Assembly (NCBI GenBank): GCA_947447265.1
Contig: CANFKC010000005.1
Location: 1 to 64,000 of the forward strand
Source of the DNA: Chitinophagaceae bacterium
Lineage (GTDB): Bacteria; Bacteroidota; Bacteroidia; Chitinophagales; Chitinophagaceae
Direction: 5' to 3'
Length of the DNA: 64,000 nucleotides
Positions 3,458 through 32,403 of the stretch are shown here, one piece after another (position 1 is the stretch's first letter; each line of letters begins with the position of its first letter). A model generated the notes under the pieces. The model was not told the origin of the DNA and searched no databases. It saw only the letters and a program-made list of their open reading frames with translations. Position numbers and translations under genes: made by a program.

Positions 3458-4438
3458 ATGCAGAAAAATACCTTAAAGATCTATGTGCAGACCATCTGCT
3501 GGTTTGGTGAGTATATCATTGACTGGAGCGACCCCGGTATTTTATATCGTCTTTCCGAGAGGCAGGAAGGACTTGACAATATTAGTTATGGTTCGCTATT
3601 CGACGGAGCCATTGCCTCGTCAGATAATGTTTATGCATTGATTTATCAACGGTTGGGAACAAAGGGCCTCTTGCTTAAAAACGGGAGGTTGATGAGAGAA
3701 GTTAACAGGTCTTACTATCAGGCGGATGTCTATGAATATCCTGCCGCTTTTTTTATTTATGACGGCCGGACGTACCTGGCACACTGCCCATTAGCGTATA
3801 ACCGGATTGACTTTGAAGATGTAGAAACCGGAGAGGTTATTACAGGCAAAACACCACGAACTCTGGTTGACTCCTTTTACTCACGGCTGGAAGTGGGCCC
3901 CGGCAACAAGTATCTGCTGAGCAAGGGCTGGGGGTGGCATCCTGTCAATATCACACAGGTATATGATATTGCAGCATGCTTCGAAAAACCTGCCATGCTT
4001 GATGTCTATAATGAGCTCACCTCCCCGTTGAGTGGAGAAATTTGTACCGCAAGTTTTATTTCCGATTCAAAAATTCTTGTTGGCCCACCAGAAGAGTTAA
4101 TTCGTGATGACGGAAGCCCAGATGCAAAAAACACATTACGGTCCTACTGCGTGCTGGATATGACAACCGGCACCTATACTCCATCTGTAGCTGCAGAAGT
4201 GGAAATAGGCAACCTGATTGCCATTGATGAATACTACGCCTGGGATACATACAAATATCCGAAGGTCATAGCCCTTGTAACTGGCAGAGTAGTAGATAAA
4301 GACGAAACGGTTTTTTCAGGTGATTGTAAATCTTCGATAATAAGGGAAGATGAGCCTCACCTGGCCATTAATGCGGCAAGAGATAAGCTTGTAATAAAGA
4401 ATGGAAATGAAATTACCCTTGTAGGCTGGGAAAGGTAG
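3458..4438 (+). CDS. Hypothetical protein, probable cytoplasmic beta-propeller-like
   Basis: The frame is open from 3395, but the Met at 3458 (MQKNTLKIYV) is preferred because the upstream 21 codons look non-coding; that gives 326 residues. There is no signal peptide or membrane segment. The protein alternates short beta-strand-like phrases with charged turns (for example ASSDNVYALIYQRLG, NKYLLSKGWGWHPVN, DKLVIKNGNEITLVGW), suggesting a repeat/propeller fold that reports stored values; I cannot name a family. It stands alone between two convergent minus-strand units. Confidence 0.65.
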   Translation: MQKNTLKIYVQTICWFGEYIIDWSDPGILYRLSERQEGLDNISYGSLFDGAIASSDNVYALIYQRLGTKGLLLKNGRLMREVNRSYYQADVYEYPAAFFIYDGRTYLAHCPLAYNRIDFEDVETGEVITGKTPRTLVDSFYSRLEVGPGNKYLLSKGWGWHPVNITQVYDIAACFEKPAMLDVYNELTSPLSGEICTASFISDSKILVGPPEELIRDDGSPDAKNTLRSYCVLDMTTGTYTPSVAAEVEIGNLIAIDEYYAWDTYKYPKVIALVTGRVVDKDETVFSGDCKSSIIREDEPHLAINAARDKLVIKNGNEITLVGWER

Positions 4439-4462
4439 TGGTACATGTTGCAGACGATTTAG

Positions 4463-5605
4463 CTACTTCACCTTTCTATCCTTCCACTTGTAATTACCTA
4501 CTATACCCAGGAAGCCGGCAAGCACTATATACAGCACATGCAACGGTTGCAGTATCGGAAAGTAGACCTGTGTCCACTGCTTGCGAAAGAATGCAGCAAC
4601 GGGAATCATAAAAATATACTCGGTAATTGTTTTGAGCAGTAACATACTACCGGCTACCAACCAATACCAATGATTCGCAAAACCTGCTATGCCCAGGCCA
4701 ACAATGGCAACATTAAACAGGTAAACCAGCATCAGGATAGCGGTAAGGCGCTTGTCATCGTACTTGCCAGATTTGGAAGCCCAGCGTATACGCTGCTGTA
4801 AAAAACTAGCCCAGTCGGGTTGCGGCAGCGTAGTAACAATGGCGTTGGGCGATTTCAGGTATGCTATGCGGGCTGCGGGCACGCGGGCTATTTTCATCAT
4901 CAGCAGGTAGTCATCTCCCGATGCAAGGTGCTCTACACCTTCGTAGCCGTTCACCTCATTAAAAATAGCCTTGCTGAAAGCAAGATTGGCACCATTGCTC
5001 ATATTACCCAGCTTCATGCTGTGGGTAGCCGCAGTAATGCCCTGCATGCCCATAAAATCAATCAGCTGGAATTTATTGAGTATACCCAGCGAACCGCTGA
5101 AAATAACTGGCGCTACTATCATAGCCGGATTGCGCAATTCATACAATCCTGCCATATTCAAGAGCCAGAGGTTGGGCGCAATACAGTCGGCATCAGTAGT
5201 TACGATAAGGCTGCCGCGACTTTCCTTTATACCAGCGGTAAGGGCAGCCTTCTTAAAGGCATTCACTTTTAAACCAGGTTGAATATAGTCTGCAAGGCGG
5301 ATGCATCTTACCCGTTCATCATGGTATTCCGATACTATCTCAGCGGTATTGTCTTCAGAATGGTCGTCTACAACAATTACTTCCATAAGACCTGCGGGAT
5401 ATTTTTGAGCAAGAATACCATCAATGCAGGCACCGATATTATCTCGCTCATTGCGGGCGGGCACTATAACTGAAATAAAAGTATGGGGTTCGTAACCCGG
5501 CGGCACCCTGAACTCTTGCTGCAGTTTCCAACCCTTCATGTACAACATTACCAGCAGCAGGTAGCTGAGCGTTAAAAAGGCGCATATTATAGTTGTAATT
5601 ACCAT
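4463..5605 (-). CDS. Family 2 glycosyltransferase, membrane-bound
   Basis: A 380-residue GT2 enzyme with an N-terminal membrane helix (ICAFLTLSYLLLVMLYM), a cytosolic catalytic domain and two to three C-terminal helices. Diagnostic motifs are ISVIVPARNE, VIVVDDHSEDNT, the metal-binding TTDADC (DxD) and QQRIRW (the QxxRW motif of processive or polyprenyl-linked GT2s), with GDDYLL as the acceptor-site acidic motif. It should transfer a sugar from a nucleotide donor to a lipid or growing polysaccharide at the inner membrane. A GTG at 5644 overlapping the upstream TAG is an alternative start; I chose ATG 5605 because the hydrophobic helix begins there. Last gene of the glycan cluster. Confidence 0.85.
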   Translation of the reverse strand: MVITTIICAFLTLSYLLLVMLYMKGWKLQQEFRVPPGYEPHTFISVIVPARNERDNIGACIDGILAQKYPAGLMEVIVVDDHSEDNTAEIVSEYHDERVRCIRLADYIQPGLKVNAFKKAALTAGIKESRGSLIVTTDADCIAPNLWLLNMAGLYELRNPAMIVAPVIFSGSLGILNKFQLIDFMGMQGITAATHSMKLGNMSNGANLAFSKAIFNEVNGYEGVEHLASGDDYLLMMKIARVPAARIAYLKSPNAIVTTLPQPDWASFLQQRIRWASKSGKYDDKRLTAILMLVYLFNVAIVGLGIAGFANHWYWLVAGSMLLLKTITEYIFMIPVAAFFRKQWTQVYFPILQPLHVLYIVLAGFLGIVGNYKWKDRKVK

Positions 5606-23773: not shown

Positions 23774-26164
23774 ATGAGACTTATATGCTTTATCATGGTA
23801 ATGGCGCTATGCCTTACTACTGCTACCTATGCACAGAAACAGGAAAGGTATTCCCGCGCCAAGGTGTACCTGGATAATAAACAGCACACTATCCGCAACC
23901 TTTCTGAACTGGGCGTGGCTGTTGACCATGGCGAGCAAAAAAAGGGAGTCTTTATTATTACTGATTATTCAGCGAGTGAAATAAAAGCTATTAAAAAAGC
24001 TGGCTTTAAGGTCGATGTCATCATTAAAGATGTATCAAAGTACTATCGCGACCAAAACAAGAAAGATAAAAAACACAATAAAACCACTACGAGTACTAAT
24101 TGTAACCCAGGGCCGGCACTCGATGCTCCGGCCCATTTTCATTTGGGCACTTATGCCGGCTATTATACGTACACTGAGTTGCTGAATATACTTGATTCGA
24201 TGCACACACTGTATCCCAGCCTCATCAGCACCAAAGCGGCGATAGATACCTTTCATTCTGTAGAAGGACGGCCTATTTACTGGTTACGTATTTCTAACAA
24301 TCCCTCGGTTGACCAACCTTCTAAACCGCAGATGCTGTACACGGCATTGCACCATGCGCGTGAACCCGGAAGTATTACCAGTACCATCTATTACATCTGG
24401 TACCTGCTGGAAAATTATGCTACGGACCAGCACATCAGGAGCATTATCGATAATTCAGAATTGTACTTTATACCGTGCCTTAACCCTGACGGCTACCTGT
24501 ATAATATCAGCACCAACCCGGGCGGTGGTGGCATGTGGCGCAAAAACCGTAAACATAACTCCGACGGCACTTATGGCATTGACCTGAACAGGAATTACGG
24601 TTATCAGTTTGCTTACGATAATATTGGCTCAAGCCCAACAACTTCGAGCGACGTATACCGCGGCCCATCAGCTTTCTCTGAGCCGGAAACACAGGCTATA
24701 AAGTGGTTCACACAGCACCATCATTTCAAAACTACACTCAACTATCATACTTATGGTAACGATGTTATTTACCCATGGGGTTACATCGGCTCCCTACTCA
24801 CACCTGATTCGCTGCAGTTCCAGGGTATTGCAGGGTATATTACCCAATACACCCCTTACCGCTATGGTACAGGCGACCAAACTGTAGGCTATGTAACCAA
24901 TGGCGATTCTGACGACTGGATGTATGGCGACACTTCATCGAACCCTAAAGTATTTGCCATGACGCCGGAGATCGGCCTTGCTTCTGAAGGGTTTTATGCA
25001 CCGGCATCCAGCATCGTACCCAATGCAAAAAGCAATCTGCGCACCAATATAAACGCGGCCAATTTATTACTGCCGTTTGCAACTATTACGCATACCGATG
25101 AAAAAATAATCACCAGGGCTACTGGCTACCTGCACTATGCCATGCAACGCCTCGGCTATCCGGATACCGCTACTTTTACTGTGACCATGACACCCTTAGA
25201 TAGCTGGCTTACCATCAGTTCTGCACCGCAAACATTCACATCATTAGCCATGTTGCAGGAGGTAGTTGATTCTATGCCCTACACCATCGCTTCCGGCACA
25301 CCAAATGGCCAGTTGATTAGGTATGAACTGAAACTTTACAATGGCTACTATTATTCGTCTGATACTGTGGAGTTTTATTACGGTAAAACCTACAGAAATG
25401 TAGTACCTAATACTAATACCCTTACTGACTGGACCAGCACCGGATGGGCGAATTGCAACAGTAAATTCTACTCTGCACCTGCAAGCATTGGCAGCAGCGC
25501 CACAGGCTGCGCTAATTACCCGGATAATGACGCTATTACTTTGCAGTTAAACAGTGCGGTAGATCTTACGCATGCCACACAGTCATTCTTATATTTCTAT
25601 TGTAATTGGGGCGTTGAATCGTCATACGATTATGTAGTAATACAAGCCGCGCCAACCGGCAGCGGGGCATGGCAACCGCTGTGCGGCCGCTACACCAAAC
25701 CCGGCACAACCAATCAGTTATTTAATGAGCCAATTTATGACGGACAGCACCCGGATTGGGTGCAGGAAGAAATGGACCTGCATGATTATATAGGCCAGAA
25801 AATAGACCTGAAGTTTGAACTGGTAAGTGATGGTGCTGTTAATTATTCAGGTTTCTTTATCGATGATATGAATGTAGTTTCGGTAATTGATTCTTCATTT
25901 GTAGCGGTGCCAGGTATAACCACCAATGCTACAACTATTACCGTCTATCCTAACCCGACGCATGACCAGTTGAATGTATCTGTAACAGACTATGCTTTTA
26001 CTCAGCCTTTAAACGCGGTTTTATTTGACTGTACCGGAAAAGAAGTTTACAAAATAATGATTGACAAACAGGTAACAGCCATTGATACGCGTAACCTCTC
26101 TGCCGGAATCTACTACCTGAAAACGGAAGGCTTGCCAGTGCAAAAAGTGGAAGTGCTTCATTAA
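23774..26164 (+). CDS. Secreted M14 zinc carboxypeptidase with T9SS sorting domain
   Basis: A 796-residue secreted metallopeptidase. Order: signal peptide (1-20), a propeptide-like segment (to about 110), the M14 catalytic domain with zinc ligands His194 and Glu197 (HHAREPG) and His325 (NYHTYG), substrate-binding DLNRNYG (270-276), SEPET and catalytic Glu399 (MTPEIG), then a jelly-roll/CUB-like domain (about 540-700) and a type A sorting domain (VYPNPTHDQLNVSV ... LSAGIYYLKTEG). It should remove C-terminal residues from peptides outside the cell. Length and layout match Bacteroidota M14 exoproteins. Confidence 0.93.
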   Translation: MRLICFIMVMALCLTTATYAQKQERYSRAKVYLDNKQHTIRNLSELGVAVDHGEQKKGVFIITDYSASEIKAIKKAGFKVDVIIKDVSKYYRDQNKKDKKHNKTTTSTNCNPGPALDAPAHFHLGTYAGYYTYTELLNILDSMHTLYPSLISTKAAIDTFHSVEGRPIYWLRISNNPSVDQPSKPQMLYTALHHAREPGSITSTIYYIWYLLENYATDQHIRSIIDNSELYFIPCLNPDGYLYNISTNPGGGGMWRKNRKHNSDGTYGIDLNRNYGYQFAYDNIGSSPTTSSDVYRGPSAFSEPETQAIKWFTQHHHFKTTLNYHTYGNDVIYPWGYIGSLLTPDSLQFQGIAGYITQYTPYRYGTGDQTVGYVTNGDSDDWMYGDTSSNPKVFAMTPEIGLASEGFYAPASSIVPNAKSNLRTNINAANLLLPFATITHTDEKIITRATGYLHYAMQRLGYPDTATFTVTMTPLDSWLTISSAPQTFTSLAMLQEVVDSMPYTIASGTPNGQLIRYELKLYNGYYYSSDTVEFYYGKTYRNVVPNTNTLTDWTSTGWANCNSKFYSAPASIGSSATGCANYPDNDAITLQLNSAVDLTHATQSFLYFYCNWGVESSYDYVVIQAAPTGSGAWQPLCGRYTKPGTTNQLFNEPIYDGQHPDWVQEEMDLHDYIGQKIDLKFELVSDGAVNYSGFFIDDMNVVSVIDSSFVAVPGITTNATTITVYPNPTHDQLNVSVTDYAFTQPLNAVLFDCTGKEVYKIMIDKQVTAIDTRNLSAGIYYLKTEGLPVQKVEVLH

Positions 26165-26195
26165 TGGTGAATGGTAAATGGTGAATGGTGAATGC
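26164..26195. repeat. Short tandem repeat (ATGGTGA type)
   Basis: About four degenerate 7-bp units of ATGGTGA/ATGGTAA directly follow the M14 gene's stop codon. A nearby hairpin at 26232-26251 (GGGCTGAA / TTCAGCCC) looks like a dispersed intergenic palindrome. No coding role. Confidence 0.6.
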
Positions 26196-26285
26196 CGCCT
26201 GCGACTGGTTTGTTTTGAGGGTGCATAGCGCGGGCTGAAAATCTTCAGCCCCTACGGTTGGCGCATTTAAAAAGAATACATAAAA

Positions 26286-26311
26286 AAAGTGGGGGCTACT
26301 GCCCCCACTTT
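26286..26311 (-). terminator. Bidirectional terminator between convergent genes
   Basis: A perfect 11-bp stem (26286-26296 with 26301-26311) around TACT, flanked on the low side by a run of seven As that gives a U tract on the minus strand. It lies 24 nt past the stop of the minus-strand gene at 26335 and also serves the M14 gene. Confidence 0.88.
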
Positions 26312-26334
26312 CAATAATATGAATTTCTGAACGC

Positions 26335-26838
26335 TTAAGGCGCATGCTCGTATTTAATGTGCATGGTAATGGTGCCCGCAGTTGCTTCGTTGGTTATAGT
26401 GATGGGCGTTGTTGTCTTGATGGATGGTGTGCCTTGTAACGCCAGTGCGCCATACATCGGGTCATTAAGCATGTATTGTGCATCAAACTTATACACTGGC
26501 GCTGTATTTCCCGGAGGTGGCGTTGCAATAATTCTTGAAATGGTTAATGCCTGTTCTGGTTGCTTTGCCTGTAAATCTGCGAGTTTATAAACGATCAGCA
26601 GTATGTTCTTATCAGCCGGATCCAGCTTAAACGTTACCGGTATGCCGTCCGGAGGAATAGAATTGGAGTTAGGTGCACATGCTGTGCAGATGCCATTACC
26701 AAAGCATGCACCACCACCGGCCGGTTTTGTGCCAAATGTTACAATAGCCGAAACAGGCTTGGGCAATAGGCAACTTTGTAAAAATAAAATTGCAAAAAGA
26801 GTAATAGATATGATGCCGAAATGCAGAATCTTTCTCAT
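26335..26838 (-). CDS. Small lipoprotein with CxGxGIC motif (module copy 1)
   Basis: A 167-residue lipoprotein (MRKILHFGIISITLFAILFLQSC, lipobox LQSC). After the anchor comes AIVTFGTKPAGGGACFGNGIC, then beta-strand-rich sequence with VTFKLDPADKNILLI, a QPEQALTI phrase, and the ending TITMHIKYEHAP. It is clearly homologous to the protein at 28825, and each copy is transcribed away from a TPR/H-box gene (here 26966, 127 nt apart). No family recognised; the paired context suggests an envelope ligand or partner for the TPR sensor. Confidence 0.8.
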   Translation of the reverse strand: MRKILHFGIISITLFAILFLQSCLLPKPVSAIVTFGTKPAGGGACFGNGICTACAPNSNSIPPDGIPVTFKLDPADKNILLIVYKLADLQAKQPEQALTISRIIATPPPGNTAPVYKFDAQYMLNDPMYGALALQGTPSIKTTTPITITNEATAGTITMHIKYEHAP

Positions 26839-26890
26839 AATTAAAATGTGTATTAATGTTTGTTAGTAGCTTATGAAATTCTTTGAAGAT

Positions 26891-26911
26891 GTAGTATCTT
26901 GGCAACAAGGT
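26891..26911 (+). promoter_or_regulatory. Conserved element upstream of TPR/H-box gene, copy 1
   Basis: GTAGTATCTTGGCAACAAGGT, here ending 54 nt before the ATG at 26966, matches about 16 of 20 positions (one gap) with 29679-29698, which ends 58 nt before the paralogous gene's ATG. Within it, TATCTTGG approximates the TAnnTTTG -7 box, and 26892-26915 forms a 10-bp near-perfect inverted repeat. It may be a shared promoter or operator. Confidence 0.4.
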
Positions 26912-26965
26912 ACTAAATATATTTATTTCACCAAATAATGTCATCTTAAGACCCTGCTGAATACC

Positions 26966-28684
26966 ATGAAATTATTATTTAGAAATTTCATCGGGCGCAT
27001 CGCAATCTTTTCTTTGATTCTTGGTGCTTTTCCCGTTTGTGTACAATCTCACGAGACAAATGACTCTCTTAAGAGTGCCTTTAAAAAAAATATTTCAGAT
27101 ACAGATAGGATTAACCTACTGATCCAATTGTCAACAAATACAGATTGTGCAGACTCCTTGATAAAGTTGAAGTTCCTTCTGGACGCAGATGTCATTGTCC
27201 AAAAAATTAGTTGGAGGGAAGGTAAAATGAAGACCAATTCAGGATTGGGTGAATATTATTTTTCCTGTAAGAAGGACTACATTAGGGCAATCGACTATCA
27301 CCAGAAAAGTTTTGAAATTGCTACGCTATTGAATCTGCATTTAGAGACAGCTTTCTCGCTGGTGCAAATAGCCAAATCGCACGACATCCTTGGACAGCAT
27401 GATTTGGCGTTAGAAAAATTGTCGTCAGCTTTAGCCCTAAATGTTAATTCAAGTACGAACATGGGCATCCTTGGCGATATGGGTGTTATTTACAACAGCA
27501 TTGGCGATTACCGCCAGGCTCTTATCTGTTATAACAGGTCATTGGCAAAACTGGATAGCCAAATGCATACAAGCCATAAGGCCCAACAGCTCGATACATT
27601 AACAAGGGGCGGTTTGTTGCTTAACATTGGCGACATCTACCTTTCTATGTCCCAAACGGAAAAAGCACTTGAAAACTACAATAGCGGACTGAAATTAGGG
27701 ATAGCATTAAAAAATGATTTCCTTAAATTCTTCAGTGTCCTCGGTATCGGTAAGGCGCACTATTTTAAAAAGAATTATCCTGAAGCGATTAAAAATTTTG
27801 AAGCAGCGCTGGCCGGTTCACGAAGCCTGAAACAACCTATGTATGAGGCAGGCATATTAGACCAGTTGGCTAATGTTTATATTGCAACCGGCGATATCAG
27901 CAAGGCGGAACACTACGCCGAAGCCTCTCTGAAAATAGCGGAGAGCAACGGCTTTAATGAGCAATTACCAAAAACGTATACTACGCTGGGCAAATTGCTT
28001 TCGCTGCGCGGTAACCATAGTGTTGCAGTAAATTATCTACAGAAAGCATTGGGCTATTGCCATCAGACCAAGGCGCTGGAAGATGAAAAGAATGTTTGGG
28101 ATGCGCTGAGCAACGTTTACAAAAAAATGCAGCAGCCGGCAAAGGCGTTAGATGCTTTCGAACATTTCATTTCGCTACGCGATAGCGTATACAGCATTGA
28201 TAAAGCGAATGAATTGGTACGCATAGATCTGCAGGCGGGTTTTAATAAAAAGCAGGTTGCAGATAGTTTGAGTCAGGCCGCAAAGTATGAGCTAAAAATG
28301 CAGAAGCAGCAGGTACTTACCTATAGTGGTTTTGTGGGCCTGGTGCTGGTATTGCTGTTGTCGTTTTTCATATACCGTAACTACCATACCCAGAAGAAGT
28401 ATAACGAACTGCTCTCAAAAGAAAAAGAACGCCACCTGCAACATATTGAAGCACAAAGCAATGTGCTTACGGATATTGCCTACACACAATCGCACGAAAT
28501 TAGGGGGCCGGTCTCCACGCTATTGGGACTCGTGGAAATATTCAATTATGACGATCCCGCAGACCCTGAGAATAAAGAGGTACTGGAAGGGATAGCCTCA
28601 GTTACCAAACGCCTCGATAAAATTGTTACTGAAGTTGTGAACAAAGAAAATGACGTACACAACAAGGGTAAATTCAAAGAATAG
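26966..28684 (+). CDS. TPR sensor-like protein with HisKA-type H-box but no kinase domain (module copy 1)
   Basis: A 572-residue protein: signal sequence (MKLLFRNFIGRIAIFSLILGAFPVCV), seven or so periplasmic TPRs (about 80-420, e.g. GLLLNIGDIYLSMSQTEKAL and AGILDQLANVYIATGDISKA), one membrane helix (TYSGFVGLVLVLLLSFFIYR, about 440-460), a coiled coil and a C-terminal helix pair with SHEIRGPVSTLLGLV. His510 lies in a perfect HExRxP H-box. The chain ends 62 residues later with no ATP-binding domain. Closely related to 29757-31496, less so to 16353-17825. It may receive phosphate from another kinase or signal by conformation. Confidence 0.87.
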   Translation: MKLLFRNFIGRIAIFSLILGAFPVCVQSHETNDSLKSAFKKNISDTDRINLLIQLSTNTDCADSLIKLKFLLDADVIVQKISWREGKMKTNSGLGEYYFSCKKDYIRAIDYHQKSFEIATLLNLHLETAFSLVQIAKSHDILGQHDLALEKLSSALALNVNSSTNMGILGDMGVIYNSIGDYRQALICYNRSLAKLDSQMHTSHKAQQLDTLTRGGLLLNIGDIYLSMSQTEKALENYNSGLKLGIALKNDFLKFFSVLGIGKAHYFKKNYPEAIKNFEAALAGSRSLKQPMYEAGILDQLANVYIATGDISKAEHYAEASLKIAESNGFNEQLPKTYTTLGKLLSLRGNHSVAVNYLQKALGYCHQTKALEDEKNVWDALSNVYKKMQQPAKALDAFEHFISLRDSVYSIDKANELVRIDLQAGFNKKQVADSLSQAAKYELKMQKQQVLTYSGFVGLVLVLLLSFFIYRNYHTQKKYNELLSKEKERHLQHIEAQSNVLTDIAYTQSHEIRGPVSTLLGLVEIFNYDDPADPENKEVLEGIASVTKRLDKIVTEVVNKENDVHNKGKFKE

Positions 28685-28693
28685 GGCAAAAAA

Positions 28694-28715
28694 ACGGGAG
28701 CCAATTGGCTCCCGT
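28694..28715 (-). terminator. Perfect 22-nt palindromic terminator
   Basis: ACGGGAGCCAA and its complement meet without an obligatory loop at 28694-28715, bordered by a run of As at 28688-28694 that becomes a U tract on the minus strand. It lies 9 nt after the plus-strand TPR gene stop and downstream of the minus-strand gene at 28825, so it can serve both. Confidence 0.8.
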
Positions 28716-28824
28716 ATGAATGATAAAGTGTTATTCAACAATTAGTTTTGGGTCAAGCTAAAATTGTCCATAAAATGCTACATTTTGCACTTTGGGGTTT
28801 TGACTTTTTCCTTTTGACTTGAAA

Positions 28825-29331
28825 CTAGCTGTGCGCATATTTAACGTGCATAGTAACAACATCGCCACTTATAGTAATGGTAATGATGCTGCTAGGCTGA
28901 ATTGAAGAATTTGGGGGAAAGCCTACAGCCGCAAACATTGGCTGACTTAAATTGTAAGGAGCGCCAAACTGATAAGTTGGTGTAATGCCACCTGCAGGCG
29001 GATTAGCACAGTTATTCATTTTTACTGCCTGTTCAGGCTGTATTGCGTTTAAAGCGCTTAACGAAAAAGTGATGAGCAATGTGGTGGCATCTAACGGATC
29101 GAGGCTGAATGTGGTCGGAACACCCTCTACAAGTTTAGTTGTATCTGGCGGCAACGCTACACAAATGCCATCACCAATACATACACCACCACCCGGAGGC
29201 TGAGTGCCAAATGTTACAATCGCGTTCGATCCGCCGCCAACGATAGTCGCCTGGGCTTTAGAGGCACCGAATAAAAACAAAAAACAAAAAAATGCAGAAC
29301 ATGCTACAACTGCGTAACGGACTTTTTTCAT
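28825..29331 (-). CDS. Small exported protein with CxGxGIC motif (module copy 2)
   Basis: Start 29331 (MKKVRYAVVACSAFFCFLFLFGASKAQA) gives 168 residues with a signal peptide; the longer frame from 29478 adds an unrelated hydrophobic leader and is rejected. After AIVTFGTQPPGGGVCIGDGIC come the same blocks as the protein at 26335: TFSLDPLDATTLLI, AIQPEQAVK, and the C-terminal VVTMHVKYAHS. This copy has no lipobox at the cleavage site, so it may be released into the periplasm. It faces away from the TPR/H-box gene at 29757. Confidence 0.78.
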   Translation of the reverse strand: MKKVRYAVVACSAFFCFLFLFGASKAQATIVGGGSNAIVTFGTQPPGGGVCIGDGICVALPPDTTKLVEGVPTTFSLDPLDATTLLITFSLSALNAIQPEQAVKMNNCANPPAGGITPTYQFGAPYNLSQPMFAAVGFPPNSSIQPSSIITITISGDVVTMHVKYAHS

Positions 29332-29756
29332 GAGAATCAATAAAAATTTAGCGCTTGTAAATAAAAATAATAATAAAAAATTAGAAGTGCAAATTACTAA
29401 CATAATTTTCAATAAGCAAAAGGTGTTGGGGTGTTTTAGTAAATTTTTGATAAGAAATTCATCAAATAAATCAATCACATTAATATATTAAAAAATAAGT
29501 TCGTTTTATTAACCCTTAAATTGCAAATTTTCTTGCACTTTCCAGGCGGCAATTAATTAAATAAAAGATGGCGATATTTTTTATATACTCTCCAAAAGCA
29601 TATCAGAACACCATTCCTTATTCGGGAAATATTATTTAACCTGAAAATTAACAAACTGGTTGCAAATTGCAGCAAGAAGTCGTACTTTGCTTCAAGGTTA
29701 GAATGACAGTTGTAATTGACAAAAATCGGTAGTTGTTTATCAATAGACAAAAGCTA
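29332..29756. other. Divergent intergenic region, 425 bp
   Basis: AT-rich spacer between the two divergent genes of module copy 2. Besides the conserved element at 29679-29698 I see no ORF, RNA gene or strong hairpin. It presumably holds both promoters. Confidence 0.5.
29679..29698 (+). promoter_or_regulatory. Conserved element upstream of TPR/H-box gene, copy 2
   Basis: GTCGTACTTTGCTTCAAGGT parallels the element at 26891-26911 in sequence and in distance to the start codon (58 nt here, 54 nt there). TACTTTG resembles a -7 box. Surrounding DNA in the two loci is otherwise unlike, so the match may be under selection. Confidence 0.4.
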
Positions 29757-31496
29757 ATGAGTACTTTTCCCAGATACATTCTTGCGCTAACCTTGTTGTT
29801 CGGCTGTCTGGGTCTATCTGCTAACAGCATTGCCGAGGTTAAGAAAAACATAAGCGACTCTCTCCACGTTGCCTTTTTACAATCGTCTGTCGATTCTGAA
29901 AAAGTAAAAGTATTGCTGCAGCTTTCTTCGGTTACTGCATGCACCGATTCCTCCAGGAAACTTTCCTTTGCCAATGAAGCCTATAAAATAGCGCGAAAAA
30001 ATAAATGGGACAGGGGCCTGCTGCTGTGCAATATTGTGCTAAGCGACTATTATTCAGTATGCGTCAAAAACTATGTAAAAGCAATAGAATGCGACCAGAA
30101 TTCCATTTACCTGGCCCAGACACTGAGCGACATTGAAAATGAAGCAAAAGCGCTCGAGCATGTTGCTAAAGATTATGAAAATCTTGGGCAGCATAATTTA
30201 TCGCTCGATTATCTGAAGCAGGTACTTGCGCTGCAGGTAGACCAGCGTCTGAAAGTAGGGGTATTGGGCGATATGGGGTCAATTTATGCAAGTGTAGGCG
30301 ACTACCGCCAAGCGCTCATTTCTTATAACAATGCATTGAAGCAACTCGATGAGCTTATGGCAGCTCAGAAGGAAGTGAACAGAAAAGACAATATTACCAA
30401 AGGCGGCCTGTTGCTTAATGTGGGTGATATTTATCTTTCTATGTCGCAGTTTGACAGGGCACTCGAAAACTATAACAATGTGTATAAGCTAGGTACGGTT
30501 GTCCGCGACCAGTATTTGCAGTTTTTCAGCGTTATGGCCATGGGCAAGGCCTATTTCGCAAAGAAGAACTACGCCAAAGGCATAAGAAACCTTGAACTTG
30601 CCTTGTTTGATTCCCGTGGGCTTAAGCAGGTAATGTACGAAGCCATTATATTAGACCAACTGGCCAATGCATACCTGGCCATTGGTGCCGCAGATAAAGC
30701 CGATCAAACAGCGAAAGCTTCTTTAAAAATTGCAATGGACAATTCATTCGACCGGCAATTCCCTAAAACATATACAACGCTGAGCAAACTGCTGTACCAG
30801 CAAAAAAACTACAGTGGAGCCGTTACCTACCTGGAAAAAGCCTTAGAGTACTGCCAGAAAACCAATGAGATAGAAGATGAGAAGAACGCCTGGGAAGTGT
30901 TAAGCAATACGTACGAAAAAATGGAGCAACCCACCAAAGCGCTTGCGGCATACCGGCACTTTATTGACCTGCGCGATAGCCTCTATAACATTGAAAAGGC
31001 CAATGAGCTGGTGCGCATTGACCTGCAGGCCGGCTTTAACCAGAAACAAATGACGGACAGCCTTAAACAGGTGAAGCAAGCAAAAGCCTACGAGGGCGAA
31101 GTGCAAAAGCAACAGATAATAACTTATGCAGTATTACTTGGAATGGCGCTTGTGGTGCTGCTCTCCTTCTTTATATACCGCAACTATAATACACAGAAGA
31201 AATATAACGACCTGCTATCTAAAGAAAAAGCCAACCACCTTGCCTACATTGAGGCGCAAAGCAATACGCTAACTGATATTGCACATATACAATCGCACAA
31301 CATAAGGGGGCCTGTCTCTACCCTGCTGGGGCTGGTGAAGGTATTTAACTTTGAAGACCCTACTGACCCTGATAACAAAGAAGTAATTGAGGGCATAGCC
31401 ATTGTTACCGAGCGCCTTGATAAAATAGTGAGAGATGTTGTAACCAAAGAAAACATTATTCACAGCAAGGAAAGCTCTATACAGGGTAAGAAATAA
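29757..31496 (+). CDS. TPR sensor-like protein with HisKA-type H-box but no kinase domain (module copy 2)
   Basis: Start 29757 (MSTFPRYILALTLLFGCLGL) gives 579 residues; a TTG at 29733 is less likely. Layout equals the gene at 26966: signal peptide, TPR array with identical phrases (GGLLLN-GDIYLSMSQ, LDQLAN-Y-A-G), a NELVRIDLQAGFN linker, membrane helix (YAVLLGMALVVLLSFFIYR), coiled coil and H-box SHNIRGPVSTLLGLV with His514. It ends 65 residues after the His and has no catalytic ATPase domain. Clearly a duplicate, with the HE of the H-box changed to HN. Confidence 0.87.
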   Translation: MSTFPRYILALTLLFGCLGLSANSIAEVKKNISDSLHVAFLQSSVDSEKVKVLLQLSSVTACTDSSRKLSFANEAYKIARKNKWDRGLLLCNIVLSDYYSVCVKNYVKAIECDQNSIYLAQTLSDIENEAKALEHVAKDYENLGQHNLSLDYLKQVLALQVDQRLKVGVLGDMGSIYASVGDYRQALISYNNALKQLDELMAAQKEVNRKDNITKGGLLLNVGDIYLSMSQFDRALENYNNVYKLGTVVRDQYLQFFSVMAMGKAYFAKKNYAKGIRNLELALFDSRGLKQVMYEAIILDQLANAYLAIGAADKADQTAKASLKIAMDNSFDRQFPKTYTTLSKLLYQQKNYSGAVTYLEKALEYCQKTNEIEDEKNAWEVLSNTYEKMEQPTKALAAYRHFIDLRDSLYNIEKANELVRIDLQAGFNQKQMTDSLKQVKQAKAYEGEVQKQQIITYAVLLGMALVVLLSFFIYRNYNTQKKYNDLLSKEKANHLAYIEAQSNTLTDIAHIQSHNIRGPVSTLLGLVKVFNFEDPTDPDNKEVIEGIAIVTERLDKIVRDVVTKENIIHSKESSIQGKK

Positions 31497-31566
31497 TGGA
31501 AAAGCAATTTTGAAAAGAAGGTGTAGCTATTTTGCTATATTTACGCCCTGTAAATAATACACTACT

Positions 31567-32403
31567 ATGGCTAATCAATTGCTGAAAGGAAAGAAAGGAA
31601 TTATATTCGGGGCTCTTGACGAGCGCTCAATTGCATGGAAAACTGCACTGGTTTGTGTAGCTGAAGGTGCGGAAATTACACTATCGAATGCACCTATAGC
31701 CCTGCGTATGGGCAAAATAAATGAATTGGCCAGCATGTGTAACGCTAAAGTTATTGCCGCTGATGCCACATCGACCGCTGACCTTGACAGCCTGATGCAA
31801 CAAAGCATGGAAAACCATGGCGGTAAGATCGATTTTATGCTGCACTCCATAGGCATGTCGCCTAATGTGCGCAAGAAATTCGCTTATACCGATACCAACT
31901 ACGAGAATTTCCTTAAAACATTAGATATTTCTGCACTTTCATTGCACCGCGTGCTGCAATCGGCTATGAAGGCTGATGCGCTGAACGAATGGGGTTCAGT
32001 TGTAGGCCTTAGCTATATTGCTGCACAACGTACCTTCCCTGGCTATAATGATATGGCTGATGCTAAGGCTTTGCTGGAAAGCGTGGCGCGCAGCTTCGGT
32101 TACCACTATGGCTTTGCTAAAAAAGTAAGGGTAAATACTGTTTCACAATCGCCAACTGTAACTACAGCAGGTTCTGGCGTTTCGGGTTTTGATGTATTTT
32201 TAGAATACGCTGAAAAAATGTCGCCACTAGGTAACGCAAGCGCGGAAGATTGTGCAAACTATTGCGCAATGCTGTTTAGCGATTATACCCGTATGGTAAC
32301 TATGCAGAACCTTTTCCATGACGGGGGTTTCTCGTTTACCGGTGTGAGCACACCAATAGTTGACCAGATTTTAAAAGCCAACGGCGAAACAGCCGAGGGT
32401 TAA
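31567..32403 (+). CDS. fabI: Enoyl-[acyl-carrier-protein] reductase (NADH)
   Basis: A 278-residue short-chain dehydrogenase of the FabI type, which reduces trans-2-enoyl-ACP in the last step of each fatty-acid elongation cycle. The catalytic Tyr160-x6-Lys167 (GYNDMADAKALL) and the second conserved Tyr150 match FabI spacing. The N-terminal KGIIFGALDERSIAW is the FabI nucleotide-binding loop (G-x5-SIAW), and HSIGMSP is the active-site strand. Cytosolic. porQ follows 56 nt later and may be cotranscribed. Length is slightly above E. coli FabI. Confidence 0.95.
   Translation: MANQLLKGKKGIIFGALDERSIAWKTALVCVAEGAEITLSNAPIALRMGKINELASMCNAKVIAADATSTADLDSLMQQSMENHGGKIDFMLHSIGMSPNVRKKFAYTDTNYENFLKTLDISALSLHRVLQSAMKADALNEWGSVVGLSYIAAQRTFPGYNDMADAKALLESVARSFGYHYGFAKKVRVNTVSQSPTVTTAGSGVSGFDVFLEYAEKMSPLGNASAEDCANYCAMLFSDYTRMVTMQNLFHDGGFSFTGVSTPIVDQILKANGETAEG

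Follow-up and report, generated by a model that had tools for sequence, protein, structure and literature searches.

The 64,000-nucleotide stretch analyzed here (positions 1 to 64,000 of contig CANFKC010000005.1 from a Chitinophagaceae bacterium, assembly GCA_947447265.1; hereafter, the window) contains two divergent gene pairs in tandem. In each pair, a gene for a small protein with a CxGxGIC motif faces a gene for a putative receptor with an N-terminal signal, tetratricopeptide repeats (TPRs), a transmembrane (TM) segment, and a dimerization and histidine phosphotransfer (DHp) region. The small gene of pair 1 (26335–26838, minus strand) encodes 167 amino acids, with a lipoprotein-like signal (LQSC) and the motif CFGNGIC, and is separated by a divergent intergenic region of 127 bp (26839–26965) from the gene of TPR receptor 1 (26966–28684, plus strand; 572 amino acids). 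This receptor starts with a hydrophobic signal, followed by TPR helices at residues ~45–408, a TM segment at ~448–471, and a DHp region that extends to residue ~567, and has no HATPase domain. Its HisKA/DHp match spans 28490–28636 (plus strand; residues 509–557), where codon 28493–28495 encodes His510. The small gene of pair 2 (28825–29331, minus strand) encodes 168 amino acids, with a signal-peptide-I-like N-terminus and the motif CIGDGIC; its listed open reading frame (ORF) begins at GTG 29478, with homology only from ATG 29331. A divergent intergenic region of 425 bp (29332–29756) separates it from the gene of TPR receptor 2 (29757–31496, plus strand; 579 amino acids; alternative ORF start TTG at 29733), which encodes a signal, TPRs, a TM segment at residues ~451–476, and a DHp region, also without HATPase. 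The two small proteins share 40% identity (E = 6e-41) and the two receptors 55% identity (614 bits). The gene positions, the divergent layout, and the paralogy of both members given by a first-pass annotation of the window are confirmed. A genome search with the small protein recovered both window genes (E = 1e-110 and 4e-34) and no third copy in the window genome. The lone extra match in this genome (G000:C4) was set aside as a family member on account of its E value of 0.385 and its internal stops.

The small protein family was found in at least 4 of 11 genomes of the window genus, at least 21 of 35 genomes of a second genus (g97), and at least 16 of 394 genomes sampled from the taxonomic family. 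The order and class samples gave only weak extra matches (at least two beyond the own genome among 396, and at least one among 295). Within the family, 45 small-gene sites were found and the surroundings of every site were inspected; one site (G673:C104) was excluded because the contig ends beside the gene. At 40 of the 44 informative sites the small gene directly adjoined a TPR gene, and in all 40 the two genes were divergent. Scripted checks of 34 paired sites gave intergenic gaps of 48–509 bp, and the other six were read by inspection (G450, G681, G687, and G693:C421, where the receptor is cut or frame-broken, as well as G106:C16 and G423:C13). The functional linkage proposed in the first-pass annotation, when tested by gene neighborhood, is thus strongly supported, as small-family homologs occur mainly with a TPR neighbor. 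Promoters of Bacteroidota carry the motif TTG-spacer-TAnnTTTG. This motif was found once in the forward and never in the reverse direction in the 34 divergent intergenic regions, compared with a mean of 0.9 after shuffling.

Both window receptors end in a DHp region. HisKA was matched above the Pfam cut-off in receptor 1 (E = 3e-7) and below it in receptor 2, and Pfam found HATPase_c in neither, whereas this domain was present in three relatives with kinase outputs. His510 was kept in all 20 aligned DHp receptors from paired sites, within the motif QxHxxRGP. Classified by their C-terminal sequences, the 40 paired receptors comprised 21 of DHp-only type (one frame-broken), 12 of cyclase type (two frame-broken), two HisKA_3 kinases, one hybrid kinase with a receiver, one that ends after the TM segment, and three that were cut. 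Ten of these receptors were scanned with Pfam: TPR families were matched in all ten, no DNA-binding domain was found in any, and the results agreed with the output typing, save for the HisKA of window receptor 2 below the cut-off. Among the 32 intact receptors (490–1010 amino acids), 31 had an N-terminal hydropathy of at least 1.7 (G101a, 1.61) and 29 had a TM segment by hydropathy. Frame-broken receptors were present in the assemblies at L070 (G391:C67), L077 (G165), and L110 (G687). It is not possible to count the receptors of DHp-only type among the histidine kinases. The outputs vary, and therefore the small partner is not tied to the H-box. Three more proteins of the window genome (L006 1462–2499, minus strand; L010 1465–2193, minus strand; L016 739–1740, plus strand) have a DHp-like H-box stretch at their C-terminal end, after PAS, GAF, or receiver-PAS domains, and no HATPase; HisKA was above the cut-off only in L010, and none was reported in L006. 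Such ends may be common in this genome.

The reverse search, starting from the receptor, gave 38 loci in the named genomes. Of 18 close loci (L120–L137), two were cut, and the other 16 hold a small gene beside 17 of 17 receptor genes; this test covers receptors at ≥37% identity in uncut loci. It serves as a check rather than a new sample, because the genomes are largely those of the neighborhood count. By comparison, none of the six distant TPR-DHp genes (L139–L144) had a small gene. The remaining loci were not counted, as L138 is cut and shows the TM-DHp end only, and L145–L157 match the TM-DHp end or a part only. When a TPR sensor was used to search three genomes, the eight best genes were all paired (weakest piece E = 1.3e-37; next gene 3e-33). 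Among the further TPR matches, the stronger ones, 20 genes for which a locus was fetched, were all unpaired; two of them (L214 and L217/L220) sit at the end of a contig. A maximum-likelihood tree split 34 paired and 20 unpaired receptors on one branch with a support of 100/100. The unpaired rows came from the receptor scan (six), the own genome (one), and the three-genome TPR search (thirteen), and the unpaired status of L214 is uncertain because only ~260 bp lie upstream. Each row was trimmed to its N-terminal 520 (paired) or 560 (unpaired) residues, and some output sequence is thus part of the tree. Ten unpaired receptors were scanned, of which eight had a cyclase domain and two were of DHp type by alignment. 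The same outputs therefore occur without a small gene when the sensor belongs to another clade, and it is the sensor, not the output, that on this tree decides the pairing. The TPR/H-box partner of the first-pass annotation accordingly holds for its TPR part, which is constant, but not for the H-box, which is exchanged for other outputs and also occurs unpaired behind the other sensor clade. Genome G423 has several TPR genes from the unpaired clade in close proximity to one another (contigs C5, C13, C15, and C40), and those scanned have a cyclase domain.

The motif CxGxGxC is the conserved stretch of the small protein: among 39 aligned rows, G49 was invariant and C45, G47, and C51 were kept in at least 90%. 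Both motifs named in the first-pass annotation occur in both window copies, but in relatives only CxGxGxC is conserved, and the TMHxKYxH ending does not hold generally. The complete small proteins encoded at paired sites were 143–442 amino acids long, and tandem copies of the domain were found in G008 and G003. An AlphaFold2 model built from the 39 sequences had a mean pLDDT of 90. None of the 39 members matched Pfam at the gathering score (best E = 0.0076, in one member each), seven further family or superfamily members stayed below the cut-off (best E = 0.026), and searches of NCBIfam and PDB sequences with the small protein gave nothing significant. Foldseek returned no solved fold at E ≤ 0.001 (best 0.071), and the best VIA-align match was weak (Z = 4.6 over 75 residues, root-mean-square deviation 3.4). 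No use was made of the VIA-align rows (DUF1480 and kinase N-lobes, none above Z = 4.6), which seem to reflect widespread arrangements of strands. By simple hydropathy rules, the N-termini of 38 small proteins were lipoprotein-like in 15, signal-peptide or anchor-like in 19, and without either in four; by eye, no signal is apparent in G423:C13 or in the second gene at G687 either. The exported nature ascribed to the small protein in the first-pass annotation fits the hydrophobic N-terminus of both window copies but does not evidently extend to at least five family members. Upstream of five signal-less small genes, no alternative start with a signal was seen. Profile comparison connected the family to a distant superfamily outside the taxonomic family (probability 99.2), with members in nine genomes (G564, G565, G889, G726, G746, G801, G814, G830, and G833). 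The G564 member has internal stops and was set aside, but is kept among the nine as doubtful.

The double module occupies 26165–31566, between an M14 peptidase gene (ending at 26164) and fabI, which encodes an enoyl-ACP reductase (starting at 31567); Pfam assigned these flanking genes to Peptidase_M14 and the enoyl-ACP reductase family. Five genomes of the same genus were examined, and in three of them (G006, G004, and G007; L238, L240, and L241) the M14 gene directly adjoins fabI, at the point where the window carries the 5.4-kb double module. A different ORF lies between the two genes in G005, and in G008 fabI is found in another setting, with the module elsewhere in the genome. In this comparison the double module is a discrete insertion before fabI, present in some genomes and absent from others. 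Another genome, G002, holds both pairs between the same flanking genes, and the receptor tree joins receptor a with a and b with b. The unit was therefore, on tree and flanks, duplicated in tandem before the split from G002, as the first-pass annotation had proposed in stating that the pair was duplicated as a unit and kept together.

Distance matrices were compared for 19 complete pairs of DHp type. The matrix of the mature small protein correlated with that of the TPR sensor (r = 0.888) and with that of the TM-DHp part (r = 0.708); G003 was excluded, as its small gene runs off the contig. The partial correlation between small protein and sensor, given TM-DHp, was 0.78 and was reached by none of 5000 label permutations. 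The one between small protein and TM-DHp, given the sensor, was 0.28 and was reached by 37 of 5000.

Alignment of pair 1 with its G002 counterpart showed a diverged core at 26694–27760, made up of the intergenic region together with the N-terminal part of small protein 1 on one side and the N-terminal half of receptor 1 on the other. Nucleotide identity in this core was 46–64% up to 27460 and 59–80% in 27461–27760, compared with 87–96% in the outer arms (the C-terminal part of the small gene; the C-terminal TPR half and DHp of the receptor gene). In the flanks, identity was mostly ~67–82% across the M14 gene, with 92% at its end, and 78–88% in fabI. At the amino acid level, receptor 1 was 32% identical over residues 1–160, 73% over 161–265, and 94–97% over 266–572, and small protein 1 was 58% identical over residues 1–53 and 97% over the rest. 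Fourfold-degenerate sites were identical at a fraction of 0.70–0.81 in the arms and 0.41–0.47 in fabI and M14. This pattern suggests that the arms were shared recently around a different central allele. Nine other species pairs were compared. G391/G692 resembles the mosaic, and identity falls at the center or close to it in G685/G691, G494/G693, and G391/G687. No clear mosaic was seen in G684/G681 and G697/G686, and in G685/G690, G695/G697, and G679/G473 the small gene and the sensor were diverged throughout.

Taken as a whole, these results make it probable that each divergent pair encodes a receptor together with its cognate ligand or obligate partner. The pairing, its orientation, its restriction to one sensor clade, the correlated distances, the diverged core in one comparison, and the insertion are read directly from the genome sequences, and the physical reading of the small protein by the TPR domain is what we infer from them. 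The small protein would form a compact, strand-rich domain with a CxGxGxC loop and would usually reach the periplasm or the outer membrane, whether as a lipoprotein, in secreted form, or anchored by its N-terminus. The receptor would span the inner membrane and expose its TPR solenoid to the periplasm, where the small protein could dock on it. A change in the receptor dimer would then pass via the long TM helix to the cytoplasmic output, in whichever direction the effect runs. This output appears to have been exchanged in evolution between a DHp without ATPase, a class III nucleotide cyclase, and a complete histidine kinase, and the ATPase-less DHp is probably a phospho-acceptor served by another kinase. 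After the tandem duplication the two window copies diverged, presumably with each receptor coming to respond to its own partner.

Several observations weigh against this interpretation. Within the family, a TPR neighbor is missing at four sites (G003:C99, G423:C28, G174:C119, and G510:C1); of five sites found only by the larger profile, three belong to these four and two are paired. In the nine genomes outside the family, the superfamily members lack a divergent TPR partner. Hence the observation that, by the first-pass annotation, would have spoken against linkage, namely homologs occurring mainly without a TPR neighbor, was not made inside the family but does describe these nine genomes. For at least five small proteins no export signal is apparent, though the readable receptors keep their N-terminal hydrophobic segment. 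The correlated distances are supporting evidence only, because linked genes are expected to correlate to some degree and the TM-DHp part is shorter and noisier. Finally, the mosaic is sharp in one comparison only, being weak or not clear in other species pairs, and pair 2 shows none against G002 (small protein 48% and receptor 45–61% identical in amino acids, TM-DHp 82%).

A more far-reaching version of the ligand-receptor interpretation, which we hold only tentatively, is that Bacteroidota use the module for self-recognition or quorum sensing. A folded protein signal would be shown or released by the cells, and each receptor would read only its own version. The N-terminal part of the ligand, the intergenic region, and the sensor half would be exchanged between lineages as one specificity cassette, with an output that can be switched between phosphorelay and cyclic nucleotide. 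The probabilities that we attach to this and the competing explanations overlap; they need not add up to one.

It is possible, though on balance improbable, that the small protein is instead a periplasmic co-sensor or inhibitor of the same cell, which would bind a different stimulus and restrain or free the TPR sensor. CpxP and LuxP are such partners of their kinases. The 15 lipoprotein-like and 19 signal-peptide or anchor-like members could stay with the cell, the model predicts a confidently folded small domain, and all of the pairing evidence fits such a co-sensor equally well. What it does not specifically predict is a diverged core that includes the N-terminal part of the small protein, nor the tandem domain copies in G008 and G003.

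The mosaic of pair 1 could also have arisen in assembly, if strains sharing conserved arms were merged in G002, a metagenome-assembled genome of 570 contigs and 70% completeness. We consider this quite unlikely, given that the identity level changes several times inside one 7.7-kb contig and that the reading frames of both G002 pairs are intact; such an artifact would bear only on the mosaic argument and leave the pairing untouched. That the genes merely travel together, as an accessory unit whose small gene is a regulated target or a passenger with a shared control region and no contact with the receptor, is very unlikely. The patchy presence in the window genus and g97 and the discrete insertion in the window are as expected of such a unit, but the ten scanned receptors contain no DNA-binding domain, the intergenic regions share no promoter motif above chance, the same divergent layout is kept across different outputs and several genomic settings, and the pairing follows the sensor clade.

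A literature search by titles and abstract openings, with most subscription papers and all bioRxiv preprints outside its coverage, found no description of such a small protein-TPR receptor pair. The results thus suggest a ligand-receptor signaling module in some Chitinophagaceae that was not found described. As far as the excerpts of the sources go, three known systems share parts of its layout. In the RRNPP systems, such as Rap-Phr and PlcR-PapR, a TPR receptor gene likewise lies beside the gene of a secreted cognate partner, with several pairs per genome (PMC10075063). RRNPP receptors are, however, intracellular and 250–500 amino acids long by the definition of the detector, and their peptides derive from propeptides of 10–100 amino acids, in Firmicutes and mobile elements (PMC10075063). 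Tetratricopeptide repeats in the receptor and adjacent ligand and receptor genes are features found here as well; in contrast, the receptors described above probably have a periplasmic TPR part and a TM segment and are longer, and the partner is a predicted folded domain of ~130 residues. In the agr system of staphylococci, the excerpt describes a hypervariable region (agrB, agrD, agrC) that spans the signal gene and parts of its neighbors, including the receptor gene (PMC10482373). For comparison, the diverged core of pair 1, which is clear between two species (G000/G002), covers part of the small protein and part of the sensor. Unlike agr, which uses a peptide signal, the present module has a whole domain as the partner, encoded divergently from the receptor. 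Compared with an AgrB-like processing protein, the neighbors of the window module are an M14 peptidase and an enoyl-ACP reductase (family searches covered the window flanks alone).

The nearest studied receptor layout met is that of FimS from Porphyromonas gingivalis, a putative inner-membrane sensor whose multi-TPR domain is periplasmic and for which the signal is described as unknown (PMC11053733). In the excerpted text (PMC11053733), FimS is a complete kinase working with FimR, and no adjacent-encoded protein partner is mentioned. The window receptors, by contrast, lack HATPase, and a small gene lies beside each receptor gene. Against the NCBIfam FimS model NF053520, the window receptors scored 29.5 and 21.9 bits, far below its 600-bit cut-off (receptor 1, E = 2e-7). 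Relative to two-component histidine kinases, receptor 1 has the DHp with the conserved His, and neither window receptor has HATPase_c. The other TPR-cyclase and TPR-DHp proteins of related genomes (L139–L144; unpaired loci in L211–L232) have a similar layout and, where scanned, the same outputs, but belong to another sensor clade, and no small gene was found beside them.

The ligand of periplasmic TPR sensors in Bacteroidota is open at least for FimS, according to the excerpt (PMC11053733). A whole sensor clade that comes with a probable protein partner opens this question to direct tests, for which the members of cyclase type provide a simple reporter. The module would define a new exported domain family and would illustrate modular output exchange behind one sensor-partner pair. 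If self-recognition proved true, the principle of RRNPP and agr would have a periplasmic counterpart in Gram-negative bacteria, built on a domain of no matched family.

Some minor observations concern small-domain genes without a TPR neighbor. Distant CxGxGxC-superfamily genes (L183, L188, L197, L201, and L202) occur singly or two in a row, near a recurring gene for a small lipoprotein-like protein; two of these lipoprotein-like proteins matched no Pfam family. The gene at G003:C99 (L032 5605–6801) encodes a 398-residue protein of three tandem small domains, and phage-like genes with matches to Phage_capsid_2 and DUF2586 lie a few kb away (L032 1–4152). The TPR-less small gene of G510 lies near two genes resembling LytTR response regulators (L184 4368–7534), one of which (4368–5093) was confirmed by Pfam.

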